Shown here: positions 17,728-59,281 of the stretch, in pieces | Numbering within the stretch: position 1 is the first letter of the stretch | Layout: each line of letters starts with the position of its first letter | Origin: Halobacterium salinarum DSM 3754 | GTDB taxonomy: Archaea > Halobacteriota > Halobacteria > Halobacteriales > Halobacteriaceae | Length of the DNA: 64,000 bases | Direction: 5' to 3' | Assembly (NCBI RefSeq): GCF_008124605.1 | Contig: NZ_VRYN01000002.1 | Location: 1 to 64,000, forward strand | Translations under genes and position numbers: made by a program | Notes under the pieces: generated by a model | Database searches by the model: none | Seen by the model: the letters and a program-made list of their open reading frames with translations, nothing else | Told to the model about the DNA's origin: nothing

Positions 17728-20174
17728 GTGTCGTGGTGTGTCGCGTCTCGTGAGTGGTCAGTGCTGGCGGATCGAACGAACGCGCCAGTGGTGTTCTCCG
17801 CGCCGCCGTCGGCCACGGCGTGGTCCTCCCGAACGGTGAAATCCGAGAGCAACTCGTAGAGGTCCGTGGACTGATCGGAGAGGTCTTGGATCCGGTTGGT
17901 GACCTCCGTGAGGGAGGCCGTCTGTTCTTCTGCCGCGGCGGCGGCGTCCTCGGCTCTGGCGGTGGTGTCGTCGCTGATCGAGCCGACCTCGTCGACCATC
18001 GTCACGACCTCCTCGGTGGTCGTTGCCTGTTCGTCGGTCGCGGTGTTGATCGTCTGCACGCCACCGTTGGCCTCCTCGATGCGTTCGACGATCGTGTCGA
18101 TCGTCTCGACGGTGTCCGTGACTGTCGACTTCCCCTCCGAGAGCCGGTCGCCCATCTCCTGCATGTCCGTGACCGCGTCGGTGGTCGAGTCCTGAACGTC
18201 GGCGATCAGCGACTCGATCTCCTGGGTGGCTTCGGTCGTCTCCTTGGACAGGGATTTGATCTCGTCGGCGACGACCGCGAACCCTTCGCCGGCCTCGCCC
18301 GCGCGGGCTGCCTCGATCGACGCGTTGAGCGCGAGCATGCTGGTCTGCTCGGCGATGTCGTCGATGAGCGTGACGATCTCCCCGATCTCGGTCATCTCGT
18401 CGTCTAGGGCTTCCATCTCGGCGATGGTGCGTTTGGCCTGCTCGTCGACGGCGTTCATCTCCTCGATGGCGTCCTGGGACCGGGCCCGACCCGACTGGCC
18501 GACGGAGACGGCGTCGTTGGATTTGGCCGCGACCTCGTCCGAGGAGGACGCGATCTCCTCGATGGTGGCAGAGAGGTCCGTCATTTCGTCGGACACGTCC
18601 TGCACGATGCCGTTCTGCTGGCGGGCGTCCGCGGACATCTCCTGGACGGACTCGCTGACCTGGCCGCTGGCGCGCTTGACCTCCTCGGCGCTCGTGGTGA
18701 TGTGGTCGCTTGACTCGGCGACGTCCTTCGAGAAGCGCTGGATCCGGTGTATCGTGCCTTCCAGCTCCTCCAAGAGGCTGTTGAGGGCAGTCGCGATGGC
18801 CGCCATGGACTCGTGGTCGGTGTCCGTCTCAAGGCGCTGCGTGAGGTCGCCATCGGCGGCGTGTTCGACGGTTTCCCGGATGTCTTGGGCCTGTGATTCG
18901 AGGGCTGCCGCGAGCGCTTCGGCGTCTTCGCGGGACTGTTCGGCTTCCTTGCGGGACTGCTCGGCGGTCTCCTGGGCGTCTTCGAGGTCCGCGATCGCGG
19001 TTTCGAGATCCCAGTGCATCGTCTCCAGGGATTCGCCCAGGCGGCCGGGGACCGATTTGTCGAGCGCGTCCGCGTCGAAGTCCTGCTCGGCGAGGGCGTC
19101 GGCCTGCCCCGCCACGGTCTGGAGGTACTCTTGGATGTCGCGGAACGAGCGCTTGAGATCCCCGACTTCGTCGATGCGAGTCGTCTCTTCGATCGCGGTG
19201 TCGATGTCCCCGGCCGCGATCGCCTCCGCGCAGTCGGACATGTCCGTGAGCGCGGTCAGCGCGTCCCGACCGATCACGAGCACGAGCGCGCCGAGGCCGG
19301 CGACCGCGGTGACGATGAGCACGACGATGTTACGCTGTACGTCGCCTTCGAGCGCGTACGCGTTCGACGTGGGGGCGTGCTTGAGGAGCACCCAGTCGGT
19401 GCCTTCGACTTTCGCGTGGCCCACGAGCAACCCGTCCCGGGTTTCGATGCCGCTGTTCGTGGTGAGTCCCGTTGCGATGACTGGTGCGTCCCGGCCGGCA
19501 CCGTACGCGCTGCTGATCGCCGACTCGTCGGCCGCGATCTGGACCGTTCCCTTGATGTCGACGACCTGCGTGTAGCTGCCGTCGATGTTCCGGCTGAACG
19601 CCTCGCCGCGGGTCTCGACGCTGTGGAAGACGAACACGGCGTTGTCGGAGCCGGGCTGCTTGCTGGCGAACGCCATGACGGGGGTGCCGCGGTAGTTGAA
19701 CACGCTCGATGTGATGACGTCACCGCCCCCGTAGAAGCTGAGGCCTTCGCCGCGCCAGGGGATGGAGTACGACGTGTACGTGTCGCCCTCGACGGCGGCG
19801 TCGGTCGAGGCCCGGATGGTGTCCGTCGAGAGGTTCACGTAGTGGAGCGCTGCGGCGGTCTCTGTGAGCCCCGAGATCCGCGTGGAGAGGACCTCTGATT
19901 TGTCGGCTTGGGGGGCGGACTGGATTGCGTTGTCCTGTGAGAGGTACTGCGTTGCCGATCGCTGGCGACCGATCCATTCTTCGAGTGCTTCGGCTTCCTG
20001 TTCGGTGCTTGTGAGCAGTTCCGTGTCGCGTTGCTCGGTGACTTGTGTGGAGACTGCTTGTGTCGTGAATACGCCGACGCCGACGAGGACGAGCATGATG
20101 GTGACGATGACCACTGCCGCTTTTCGCAGCAGACTCGTCCGTATCGCTGTCGGAACGTACGTGCCCAGCGCCAT
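17724..20174 (-). CDS. htr18: Methyl-accepting chemotaxis transducer (Htr18-like)
   Basis: The 816-residue membrane transducer has TM1 at about 18-38, an extracytoplasmic sensor domain (41-280, dCache-like in size), TM2 at 283-302, a HAMP region after that, and a long coiled coil. The cytoplasmic signalling tip is around [18 protein letters not shown]. Glu/Gln-rich methylation helices flank the tip. It would relay ligand binding to CheA. The binding-protein gene potD follows with a 4-base overlap. The number 18 is assigned from recalled gene order in H. salinarum, not from alignment. Confidence 0.85.
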
Positions 20175-20392
20175 AGTTGTGTTATGTGTTCACACACGTA
20201 AAGACCCTTCTCCGGGATCAGCAGAACCTGTCCGCTACCGCCGACTGAGGCCATAAAAAGCCGTTGCCGTGGTCAGTGCTCGACGTGATCTGGCCCACTG
20301 ACGAACCACTGTGTCGGGGTGCACCTGGCTGGTAGCCCGCCATCCGTGCGCTTTCGGCGAGACACTCACCGGATGGTAACGTGGTTTCGTAC

Positions 20393-20415
20393 GGTATGCC
20401 ATATGTTTACATACC
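20393..20415 (+). promoter_or_regulatory. Dyad in the htr18 / small-protein divergent gap
   Basis: GGTATG and CATACC form a 6-bp inverted repeat separated by 11 AT-rich bases (including ATATGTTTA), 50-70 bases before the ATG at 20465. The position suits an operator over a TATA-like element. The rest of the 290-bp gap (20175-20464) shows a CTTTACG box near 20200 suited to htr18 and nothing else clear. Confidence 0.35.
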
Positions 20416-20464
20416 TCATGCCCCATGTATGTACTGTCGGCACCCCAACTGGAGGTCACGCACA

Positions 20465-20788
20465 ATGTCCACCGAATCCAACGACACATCCGAGACGGCG
20501 TTCGAGTTCAGCCTTCCCGAGCAGTGGGCGCTTCACAGTGCTGTCCGCAGCCACACCAAAGACGCCCTCGACGAGAGCAGCAGACTCCCGTACCCGGCGG
20601 TCGAACTCGCCATCCTCGGGCGCATCGAGGACGGCGAGTTCACGTTCACGGCCTTCGAGTGCAGGCGACTCGCTGCCCTCCTCTCGCAGTACGCCACGCA
20701 CGACCAGACGCCACGGATCGACCACGACCCCGCGCGCGCCATCGCCGGGCAGCTGCGCGACCACTGCCAGCCGCCGCGCCACCGGTGA
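20465..20788 (+). CDS. Conserved-looking haloarchaeal protein of unknown function
   Basis: A soluble protein of 107 residues with no signal or membrane segment. The N terminus is acidic and Ser/Thr-rich, followed by an amphipathic helical core (EFSLPEQWALHSAVRSHT, then PAVELAILGRIEDGEF) and a His/Pro-rich end. I do not recognise a named family. It was taken as coding because of its strong acidic bias and third-position GC. ATG 20465 is preferred to the upstream ATG at 20381 because the extra 28 residues are not haloarchaeal in composition. It is convergent with the next gene, with stops touching. Confidence 0.6.
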   Translation: MSTESNDTSETAFEFSLPEQWALHSAVRSHTKDALDESSRLPYPAVELAILGRIEDGEFTFTAFECRRLAALLSQYATHDQTPRIDHDPARAIAGQLRDHCQPPRHR

Positions 20789-22975: not shown

Positions 22976-25312
22976 ATGTCGATACGATCGTTTGCGCATC
23001 GAATACTGCGGCGGGCGCTGCCCGGGTTCGTTCGCCGGAGCTATCTCGCGAAGTTCGGTGTCGCGCTTCTCGCGGTGGTCGTCTGTATCAGCGCCGCGGG
23101 CGGCGTGATGTATCTGAACACCTCCGAACACCTCCAACAGAGCTCGCGGACCGAACTCAAGAAGGCCGCCGAGCTCAGCTCGTCGGCGGTGGATAACTGG
23201 CACGACGAACGCACGAACAACGCCAGGATGCTCGCTCAGTACGGCGTCTTTGACAACGACAACGTCACCGAGGTCCAGCAGTTCTTCACCGACGAGCAAC
23301 ACCACCTGCCAAGCGACGTGCGTGACATCCACTACGTGAGCCTGACCGACGCCCGGATCATCACGAGCACCGACTCGGGGCTTCGAAACGCGTCCTTTGG
23401 CTCCGAGGCGGCCCCGTGGAGCCGCCAGCAGCTCACCCCGGGCGACGACGGCGTGTTCGTCTCCCAGCCGTACGTGAACGACGGGATCACGGAGGTCGCG
23501 TACGTCGCACGCGTCTCCAGCACCCCGGGCCGGCGCACCGCGGTCGTGATGACGGCGAGTCTGGCGGCGATCTCGTCGAGCTTCTGGGATCCGACGCCCC
23601 ACAGCTTCACGCAGCTCGTCGACGGCACCGGTTCGGTGATCGCCGACGACAGCAAGCGCGCCACCCGGCAACCGTACGTCGAAAACGCCACGTCGCCGAT
23701 CGTCGGGGCGAGGGCTGTTGGCTTCCAGCCGGCGGCCCAGGCGGTCAAAGAGATGGACCAGGCCCACGAGACCGCGTACGCACCCGTCGACGGCACCCCG
23801 TGGGTGGTGACCCTGCACGTGCCGACCAGCGAAGCCTACGGCCTCGCGTCGAACATGGCGGAGAACGTGTTGCTGATCTTGGGGATCGCGCTTGCTGGCC
23901 TGGTGTTCATCGCGCTCACGCTCGGTCGCGGCACCGTGCGCGCGCTGAACGACCTAGAGGCGAAGGCCGCCGCCCTGGAGCGCGGCGAGTACGACACGGA
24001 CCTGGACGTCGCCCGTGTGGACGAGTTGGGGCGGCTGTTCGAGGCGTTCGCTAGCCTCCGGGACACCGTTCAGGCGCGGATTCGGGACGCCAACGGGCAA
24101 CAGGCGGACGCGGAGGCGGCGCGGTCGGAAGCCGAGGCCGCACAGGCCGACGCGGAAGCCGCGCAAGCCGAGGCGGAGGCCGCACGCGAGGAGTCCGAGG
24201 CGCAGGCGCGCCGCCTGGAGACGACCGCCGAGGCGTTCTCGGAGACGATGCGTGCGTACGCCGCCGGCGACCTGACGGTGCGCCTGGATGCGGACGTCGA
24301 GCAGGCGGCGATGGCGGACATCGCGGCGGCGTTCAACGAGATGGCGGCGGACATGGAGGCGACGATCGCGGACGTGGTGGCGTTCGCCGACGAGGTCGCG
24401 ACCGCCAGCACCGACGCCTCCGACAGCGCGGCAGCCGTCGAGCAGACCGGCCGCGACGTCTCCGACGCCGTCGGTCGGATCCGCGACCGGGCGGCCGACC
24501 AGCGCGACCAACTGGAAGCCGTGGCCAGCGAAACCGACGAGATGTCGGCCACCATCGAGGAGGTCGCGGCGAGCGCCGACCAGGTCGCGGAAACCTCCCA
24601 GCGCGCGGCCGCGCTGGGCGACGACGGCCAGGCGGCGGCACAGGACGCGGTCGCGCAACTCGAAGAGATCGAGGACGAGACGCAGGCGGCGGCGACCGCG
24701 GTCGACGACTTGGAGGCGAAGATGAGCGAGATCGAGACGATCGTAGCGGCGATCACGGACATCGCCGAGCAGACGAACATGCTGGCGCTGAACGCCAACA
24801 TCGAGGCCGCCCGCGCCGACCAGGACGGTGACGGCTTCGCCGTGGTCGCCGACGAGGTCAAGGACCTCGCCGACGAGTCGAAGGCGTCGGCCGCCGAAAT
24901 CGAGGCGCTCGTCGCGGAGGTGCGCGCACAGACCGAGACCAGCGTGGCGGCGATGGACCGCATCCAGGAGCGGGTTTCCGACGGCGTCGAAACCGTCTCG
25001 GAGACCGAACGGTCGCTGTCGGAGATCGCCGGCCGGATCGCGGAGGCGGACACGGGCGTCCAGGAGATCTCGAACGCGATGGACGACCAGGCGGCGTCGG
25101 TGTCGGACGTCACGACCGCAGTGGGTGACGTGGCGGCGCTGGGCGAGGAGACGGCGACGGAGGCCGAATCGACGGCCGACGCGGCGGCCGAGCAGGCAAC
25201 GACGCTCTCTGACGTGGCGGCCCAAACGGAGACGTTGGCCGAGCACGCGGTCGCCCTGCGCGAGCACGCCGCCCAGTTCGAAGTGGCCGCCGACAACGAG
25301 CGCGCGGAGTGA
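22976..25312 (+). CDS. htr4: Methyl-accepting chemotaxis transducer (Htr4-like)
   Basis: This transducer has 778 residues. TM1 spans about 26-46, the extracytoplasmic sensor domain about 48-290, TM2 about 295-317, and HAMP follows. The linker after HAMP is a striking Ala/Glu coiled coil with repeated AEAAQ units. The signalling tip reads [20 protein letters not shown]. No binding-protein gene is adjacent, unlike the other two transducers in the window, so the sensor domain may bind ligand directly. The ATG at 22976 is supported by the TATA box. The htr4 name comes from recalled gene order. Confidence 0.85.
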
Positions 25313-57412: not shown

Positions 57413-58069
57413 GTGAATCCGAGCCGCGTCGACAGCCTCACCGACCTCGCGTACGGCGTGTTGATCTTTGCTGCGGTCGGACTGATCCTGCGCGTCGGAA
57501 CGAAAACCGGCGTTGCGTTCGGGTTCGGCGTGCTGGCGGCCTACGTGTTGCACATCGCATGGAAGATGGCGCGCTTCGATCCCGAGTGGATGACGCGGAC
57601 CGTCGACGAAACCGTCACGGAGACTGTCGAGGAGTCCATGGACGAAGCCGTCGAGCAAACCATGGGCGAAACCGTCGAGCGAACCGTCGACGAGACTGTC
57701 GGTGAGACCGTCGAACAGACTGTTGATGAGACGGTCAGCGAAACCGTCGAGGAGACGGTCAAGGAGTCCGTCGAATCCACGGTCGACGAAACCGTGGGTG
57801 AGACCGTCGAGCAAACCGTCGACGAGACTGTCAGCGAAACCGTCGAGGAGACTGTCAAAGAGTCCGTCGAGGAGACCGTGGATGAGACGGTCAGCGAGAC
57901 TGTCGAGGAGTCGGTCAAACAGCAAGTCGAGGAGTCGGTCAACGAGACGGTCGAAGAGACCGTCGAACAAACCGTCAAAGAGACCGTCGACGAGCGGCTC
58001 GCCGCAGCGGACGTGCAGCCGGGCGACGACGACGAACCCGGCGACGACGAGGACGGGGCCGAGCCGTGA
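57413..58069 (+). CDS. Membrane-anchored protein with 33 tetrapeptide repeats
   Basis: The protein has 218 residues from GTG 57413. Two hydrophobic segments (about 14-26 and 33-48) are followed by residues 63-194, an unbroken run of 33 four-residue units of the form T-V-x-E, with valine (twice methionine) at every fourth residue. Units 91-121 and 123-153 are identical, a recent internal duplication. The end is an Asp/Glu-rich tail. I recognise no family. It lies 33 bases before the PiT transporter and probably shares its transcript. GTG 57413 is the first start that leaves a soluble N terminus; an ATG at 57314 is in frame. Confidence 0.7.
   Translation: MNPSRVDSLTDLAYGVLIFAAVGLILRVGTKTGVAFGFGVLAAYVLHIAWKMARFDPEWMTRTVDETVTETVEESMDEAVEQTMGETVERTVDETVGETVEQTVDETVSETVEETVKESVESTVDETVGETVEQTVDETVSETVEETVKESVEETVDETVSETVEESVKQQVEESVNETVEETVEQTVKETVDERLAAADVQPGDDDEPGDDEDGAEP
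57599..57994 (+). repeat. 12-bp coding repeat array (33 units)
   Basis: These are the DNA repeats behind the T-V-x-E units. A 96-bp block spanning 11 or more codons recurs at a 96-bp offset in the region 57683-57871. The codons vary, so the array is old apart from that later duplication. Confidence 0.8.
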
Positions 58070-58102
58070 TCGGTGCGCGGACGCGACACACTGGGGGCGG
58101 CC

Positions 58103-59281
58103 ATGATTAGCGCGCTGCTCGGGGTGGGGTTGGTTGTTGCGGCGTTCGTCGGTTTCAACGTGGGCGGATCGACGACCGGGCCGGCGTTCGGCCCGGCCGT
58201 GGGTGCGGACGCGCTGTCGAAGCCGACGGCAGCCGGTCTGATGACCGTGTTCTTCTTCATCGGGGCGTGGACGCTCGGCCGCCGCGTCGTGGACACGCTG
58301 GGCACGGAGCTGCTGCGCCAGCCCGGCATCTTCACCCTGGAGGCCAGCATCGGCGTGCTGTTTTTCATCGGACTGGCGTTGTTCGTCGGGAACTACGCCG
58401 GTGTGCCGGCATCGACGTCGATGACCGCCGTCGGTGCGATCGCGGGCCTCGGATTGGCGCGTGACGCCCTCGACGTCGCGGTCATGGGTGAGATCGTGAT
58501 CTGGTGGGTGGTCGCGCCCGTCATCGGCTTCTGGGTGTCGCTGATCATCGGCCGATACTTCTACGCGCGGCTCCACCGCCGAGTGGCCATGAACCGCACG
58601 GAGGGCGCGCTCCTCCGGGTCGACCGGACGGGCGCGATCCCGACGGTGCGGCCGGCGGAGAACACGAACCGCCGGGAGTTGTTCGGCGTGGTCACGGTCA
58701 TCACGATCGGGTGTTTGATGGCGTTTTCCTCCGGCACGTCGAACATCGCGAACGCCATCGCACCGCTGGTCGGCAGCGGCGTGGTGGGGATGAACCCCGC
58801 CATCCTCCTGGGGTGTGCCGCGGTCGGCGTCGGCTCGTTCACGATCGCGCGCCGGACCCTCGAAACGATGGGCAGCGATATCACCGAGCTGCCGCTGACG
58901 GCCGCCATCGTGGTGGCGTCGGTGAGCGCGACGCTGGTGATCTTCCTGTCGGCGATCGGGATTCCGGCGAGCTTCGTGGTCATCGCGACGGTGAGCATCG
59001 TCGGGCTCGGGTGGGGGCGTGCGACCCGCCCGGTGAGCGTGCAAAGCGCGGTCAGCGGGGACTCCGACGTGGCGGTGTCTGTCGGCGGGTTGGCCGCCGA
59101 CGACCCCGACGAGGCGGTGCCGGCCATCGGCGAGGAACAGCCCGAGGACATCCCGAGTGCGGGCGACCTCTTCGACCCGGGGACGACCGTGCGGGTGATC
59201 GCGATGCAGAACCTGGTGCCGATTGTGGGCACCGTCAGCGCGTACCTGGCGTTTCGGTTCCTCCCGATCTGGGGGTTTTAG
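58103..59281 (+). CDS. PiT-family inorganic phosphate (or sulfate) transporter
   Basis: This 392-residue transporter has two repeated halves, each with the family signature: GFNVGGSTTGPAFGPAVGA near the start and SSGTSNIANAIAPLVGSG near the middle. About ten transmembrane helices are seen, with an acidic cytoplasmic loop late in the protein. PiT carriers take up phosphate by cation symport; the first signature (NVGGSTTG, not the usual NDAANA) is divergent, so another anion is possible. It follows the repeat protein by 33 bases. Confidence 0.82.
   Translation: MISALLGVGLVVAAFVGFNVGGSTTGPAFGPAVGADALSKPTAAGLMTVFFFIGAWTLGRRVVDTLGTELLRQPGIFTLEASIGVLFFIGLALFVGNYAGVPASTSMTAVGAIAGLGLARDALDVAVMGEIVIWWVVAPVIGFWVSLIIGRYFYARLHRRVAMNRTEGALLRVDRTGAIPTVRPAENTNRRELFGVVTVITIGCLMAFSSGTSNIANAIAPLVGSGVVGMNPAILLGCAAVGVGSFTIARRTLETMGSDITELPLTAAIVVASVSATLVIFLSAIGIPASFVVIATVSIVGLGWGRATRPVSVQSAVSGDSDVAVSVGGLAADDPDEAVPAIGEEQPEDIPSAGDLFDPGTTVRVIAMQNLVPIVGTVSAYLAFRFLPIWGF

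Follow-up and report, generated by a model that had tools for sequence, protein, structure and literature searches.

A haloarchaeal membrane-protein family with a four-residue-periodic tail, a probable partner of CysP-like PiT-family transporters

Introduction

Accessory regulators of the PhoU type are helical bundles. The PhoU/PitR/NptA-type proteins exemplify small proteins tied to one transporter family, the PiT type included, and are bacterial regulators of phosphate importers (PMC13170248). PiT transporters of the phosphate type carry Asp in both of their GANDVANA signatures; in Bacillus subtilis CysP these sites are occupied by Gly and Asn (PMC5840216). No comparable partner of CysP was found described in the literature that we searched.

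In yeast, a four-residue stripe on an α-helix of Sac3 is gripped by Sus1 (PMC2726291). For coiled coils, the upper limit of periodicity has been placed at ~3.9 residues, with 3.8 as the known extreme and 4.0 outside the accessible range (PMC4786415).

Here, we describe a protein encoded in a 64,000-nucleotide stretch of Halobacterium salinarum DSM 3754 (NZ_VRYN01000002.1, positions 1 to 64,000; the window) that shares some features with each of these systems. Like the PhoU/PitR/NptA-type regulators, it is small and linked to a single family of transporters, but it is an integral protein with two transmembrane (TM) segments and a tetrad rod, with no Pfam match to them. The transporter encoded next to it has CysP (NF053884) as its best NCBIfam match and shares with it the Asn that replaces the second signature Asp, but it reaches 154 bits against a cut-off of 400 and its subfamily has Thr or Ser instead of Gly at the first site. 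The repeat resembles the Sac3 CID helix in its spacing of about four residues and in the right-handed hydrophobic stripe predicted on a single α-helix; Sac3, however, is soluble and eukaryotic, with ~25 residues per site and bulky hydrophobic residues, whereas the tetrad rods consist of long strict runs (9-84 units) of almost only valine, and the two are not homologous. Periods above 3.63 and a right-handed hydrophobic stripe also characterise the right-handed coiled coils of 11/3, 15/4 and 19/5 periodicity, such as YadA (PMC4786415), but their extreme of 3.8 is local, while the tetrad protein has 4.0 over whole rods.

Results

The gene and its repeat

The features of the locus are as follows.

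57413..58069, + strand: gene of a 218-aa two-TM tetrad-repeat protein (open frame, GTG start)
57413..57598, + strand: residues 1-62, membrane hairpin (TM ~10-27 and ~33-50) and hinge (alignments, hydropathy, charge bias, AF2)
57599..57994, + strand: residues 63-194, 33 tetrads, predicted cytoplasmic α-helix (V or M every fourth residue, AF2)
57638-57719: residues 75-102, match to PF24252 CdrL_M (Pfam) in the acidic tetrad repeat
57683..57775, + strand: residues 91-121, first copy of a 31-residue block (internal duplication)
57779..57871, + strand: residues 123-153, second copy, with 13 synonymous third-position differences
57995..58066, + strand: residues 195-218, acidic tail, predicted to be mostly unstructured (sequence, AF2)
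58103..59281, + strand: PiT-family (PF01384) CysP-like putative anion transporter, 392 aa (Pfam PHO4, NCBIfam, PDB 6l85)
58154..58207, + strand: N-half signature FNVGGSTTGPAFGPAVGA, in which T replaces the Asp of GANDVANA (6l85 alignment)
58727..58774, + strand: C-half signature SSGTSNIANAIAPLVG, in which N replaces Asp, as in CysP (6l85 alignment)

The open reading frames and the translation confirmed the coordinates and frame that the original prediction had assigned to the gene at 57413, and orthologues begin at the same MNP..RVD start in alignments. The hinge W-K-M-A-R-F-D-P-x-W-M-T, which follows the membrane hairpin, is invariant in the aligned homologues. Divergence from the homologue L063 is biased toward third positions (4/1/25 over the first 62 codons). 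The original prediction had also reported an exact 32-residue duplication; the protein has 31 identical residues repeated at an offset of 32, and the DNA copies are not exact, as 13 of 93 bases differ. Since all 13 differences fall at third codon positions, the frame encodes a real protein and, as judged from these substitutions, is under purifying selection. An untranslated frame, which had been named beforehand as a refutation, and an antisense gene were rejected because the differences occupy third positions of the + frame; we regard the antisense ORFs of 275 and 1127 aa as shadow frames that arise from high-GC coding.

The repeat had been described as 33 consecutive T-V-x-E units in residues 63-194. 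The spacing and the number of units hold, whereas the literal motif does not: position 2 is V in 31 and M in 2 of the 33 tetrads, T is first in 26 and E last in 26, and as 21 units fit exactly, T-V-x-E is a consensus. In 87 homologues, the hydrophobic spacing is exactly 4 in 3065 of 3217 steps (95.3%) and falls to 10.2% after shuffling of each repeat region, and 34 of the homologues have no exception at all. The chains comprise 9-84 hydrophobic steps (median 39), and in most members the anchor point of the run is residue 59-60. In some relatives, 3-residue steps (e.g. VEKVEKTV) interrupt it and bring the mean period to 3.7-3.9; a diverged branch has a spacing of 4 in 85% of steps, and the f10 relatives in 60-70%. 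When units of one gene are paired, 43% of the pairs differ at the third position of the valine codon and 1.6% at the second, a comparison partly conditioned by the choice of units with a hydrophobic residue at that site. Thus, by sequence comparison, unit number varies widely and phase hardly varies. Random variation of unit number was another refutation proposed in advance; the number does vary widely (9-84), but this does not refute the reading, since phase and valines are kept and the frame is under purifying selection.

Distribution and family assignment

The protein was matched in 252 of 392 Halobacteriales genomes, from 71 of 95 genera (247 genomes without five weak matches). Among 197 genomes drawn across the phylum, all 25 matches were from Halobacteriales, and none was found outside this order. 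The nearest named orthologue is from Halobacterium sp. TGN-42-S1 (90% identity over the N-terminus). Within Halobacterium, 11 of 12 other genomes match at E 0.01, ten of them strongly; the match in the eleventh, G009, belongs to the diverged branch. In G001 and G009, which have no window-type match, the close transporter lies 392 and 462 bases, respectively, from a contig end (G001:C90, G009:C150), and therefore the repeat gene probably broke these assemblies. Further absences may be short-read assembly artefacts of a like kind. The diverged branch itself was matched by a single query in 24 of 146 genomes, a few of these being cross-matches to the window type, and its N-terminal domain is homologous to that of the window type (hhalign probability 97%, E 3.5e-11).

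Pfam and NCBIfam, annotation and literature searches agreed with the original prediction in returning no described family. The N-terminal two-TM domain has no Pfam match at E 0.01, and annotated plasmid copies carry the name "hypothetical protein". No PhoU/DUF47 domain occurs among the best 25 families of the protein at E up to 1, or in the N-terminal domain. Rfam returned nothing. A virus origin was rejected, as phage records gave no match. In the literature searched (subscription journals being outside its scope), neither a haloarchaeal family with such a repeat nor a haloarchaeal PiT accessory protein was described. We conclude that the protein represents a new haloarchaeal family.

Several apparent matches of the repeat were rejected. 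CdrL (PF24252 CdrL_M) reaches 28.9 bits for the whole protein against a cut-off of 27, but no single stretch passes, the best being 28 residues of repeat. As this model passes its curated cut-off on acidic tetrads, automatic annotation may mislabel members of the family as CdrL-like. DUF445 (PF04286) scores 19.7 bits against a cut-off of 33.8, and the reversed repeat alone scores 17.3 bits. The T3SS translocon, GvpQ and other Pfam and NCBIfam repeat matches reflect composition only, according to the reversed-repeat control, and PDB sequence matches of the repeat (a designed pore, an L17 tail) are weak and of low complexity.

The neighbouring transporter

The gene ends 33 bases before the ATG of the transporter at 58103, as originally noted. 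A longer GTG start exists at 58073, but the start at MISALL, which corresponds to the ATG, is the one that homologues share. The longer ORF belongs to the PiT/PHO4 family (Pfam PHO4, E 7e-43, 147 bits against a cut-off of 33.7, residues 31-323) and matches PDB 6l85 with an E of 2e-12. Its best NCBIfam match is the CysP sulfate permease NF053884 (E 3e-45, 154.5 bits), below the 400-bit equivalog cut-off, so we call it CysP-like and do not assign it to CysP. In the register taken from the 6l85 alignment, all 80 linked transporters carry T or S at the first signature site and N at the second, and none has the Asp pair of phosphate-transporting PiT proteins. Because both residues required for phosphate are replaced throughout, sulfate or another anion would be a likelier substrate than phosphate. 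The PiT-like transporter of the original prediction is therefore described here as CysP-like, not as a phosphate-type PiT, on the replaced signature Asp and the best NCBIfam match.

Of 80 named loci, 54 have the transporter immediately next to the repeat gene. It is downstream in 34 of these, from 18 named genera, and 24 of the 34 pairs overlap, by 1, 4 or 8 nt; in the other 20, from 8 named genera, the two genes are divergent. At the remaining 26 loci, no transporter is directly adjacent. About half of the loci seen in the diverged branch have the transporter immediately upstream, whereas it lies downstream in three f10 relatives. Of the 247 genomes with a window-type protein, 228 also carry a close transporter (E <= 1e-135), vs 17 of the 140 genomes without one, counts that are uncorrected for shared ancestry. 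Linkage of the two genes is thus well supported by genome comparison, and the proposal that the protein is a transporter partner gains support from the three gene orders in which the two are adjacent, from overlapping start and stop codons and from phyletic co-occurrence.

No other neighbour is conserved across the family, and the loci without a transporter have no conserved neighbour beyond close relatives of one genus. The upstream genes for aTrm56 and TFE were rejected as partners, as their linkage is confined to Halobacterium. The genome has other intact PHO4 genes, and no such repeat gene was seen in those of their flanks that were read. Another PHO4 paralogue (L173/L178, G000 contig 14) adjoins, by eye, YeeE/YedE-type and TauE-type sulfur-permease-like genes, hinting at sulfur substrates for the wider PHO4 group. 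The genome of the window also holds a second pair of transporter and two-TM repeat protein, at L031 (G000 contig 8: 37000-47084), which has decayed: the transporter frame is broken, and an in-frame TAG interrupts that of the repeat protein. At L003/L030 (G000 contig 7: about 20171-20530), the diverged branch is represented by a short gene that stands alone, with no transporter found within ~5 kb.

Topology and predicted structure

Lys and Arg average 2.0 after TM2 vs 0.08 in the hairpin loop, which by the positive-inside rule would place the tetrad tail in the cytoplasm. The net charge of the repeat is -0.31 per residue. For the window protein, AF2 predicted helices at 3-28, 30-54, 57-92 and 100-199 with a mean pLDDT of 65 (46-60, i.e. 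low, in mid-repeat); a diverged member was predicted as two helices, 2-36 and 39-174, with a pLDDT of 72.8. These models, which are monomer predictions, weakly favour a helical tail. With 3.60-3.63 residues per turn of α-helix, each step of a stripe spaced at four residues shifts it by 37-40 degrees, giving a right-handed path with a pitch of 54-59 Å. The right-handed stripe proposed in the original prediction is consistent with the predicted helices, this geometry and the Sac3 precedent (PMC2726291). By sequence, the period of 4.0 exceeds the ~3.9 range of right-handed coiled coils.

Discussion

The protein combines a conserved two-helix hairpin with a strictly four-residue-periodic acidic tail and is co-encoded with a transporter. 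We consider it probable, from sequence comparison, that it is a membrane-anchored accessory subunit of the neighbouring CysP-like PiT transporter. It would be a new kind of transporter partner, since it is usually encoded beside the transporter gene, often with overlap. In this role, the hairpin may sit against the transporter and the tail, which the charge bias puts in the cytoplasm, could extend as a long α-helix of ~200 Å here and up to ~490 Å in a relative, on prediction and geometry. Along it, the valines would wind as a right-handed stripe (pitch ~54-59 Å) that self-associates or is gripped by a partner, and the rod might cluster, space or regulate the transporter; its length would drift freely by slippage in four-residue units, with selection keeping the phase. 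Gene linkage, tetrad phase, K/R bias, the AF2 helices and the gripped stripe of Sac3 argue for an accessory subunit. The 26 of 80 loci without an adjacent transporter, the low AF2 confidence in the repeat and the T/V/G-rich tetrads, which are not ideal helix formers, argue against it. Of the earlier interpretation, the partner role, the absence of a family and the right-handed stripe were retained, and the transporter was redefined as CysP-like.

It is conceivable, though rather doubtful, that the hairpin alone matters and that the repeat is a disordered, slippage-prone, low-complexity acidic tail, at most a charged bristle. The spread of unit number, the net charge and the uncertainty of AF2 about the repeat are compatible with this, and 12-base slippage alone preserves phase. 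However, the units appear old, their valine codons differing far more at third than at second positions (with units chosen as hydrophobic), the duplicated block has accumulated 13 synonymous and zero replacement changes, and distant branches with little tail identity still show a spacing of 4 in 60-85% of steps. We find it unlikely that the protein serves haloarchaea as a general structural rod tethered to the membrane and adjoins the transporter through inherited gene order only; the loci without a directly adjacent transporter and copies that stand alone, such as that on G000 contig 7, would fit such a rod, but not the three gene orders, divergent included, with the same transporter subfamily, the overlapping stop and start codons or the joint absence of protein and transporter.

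The conformation of the repeat is a separate matter. Our tentative proposal, which may well prove wrong, is that the cytoplasmic rod is a continuous α-helical assembly with a sustained period of exactly four, wound as a right-handed superhelix and more tightly than every coiled coil known so far. Such proteins would form a class of archaeal transporter subunit in which length is free and phase is fixed. A sustained period of 4.0, beyond the coiled-coil range (PMC4786415), together with T, V and G, which do not favour helices, might instead indicate another regular fold, e.g. a solenoid in which the four-residue unit is the step. Such a fold is very improbable given the helix predicted by AF2 in two diverged members and the E/K pairs of many units, and a flat β strand, in which V would share a face with the third residue of each unit, would not be amphipathic. 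The tetrad tail lends itself to testing, in a natural protein, the upper limit stated for coiled-coil periodicity; members with 9 to 84 steps make synthesis feasible for short rods and imaging for long ones. The family is conserved yet undescribed, occurs in about two thirds of the sampled haloarchaeal genomes and is tied to a putative anion transporter.

Two further sequence elements were observed. A conserved element of about VDAVQERIETVDQRIDRRPREDEIEELLE, with heptad-like spacing, follows or separates the tetrads in L066, L078, L089, L110, L113, L131 and L138 and is perhaps a cap or an oligomerisation switch. A second tandem repeat, AEAEA-like with periods of 21, 42 and 27, lies in an apparent coding region at 24100-24220 of the window.
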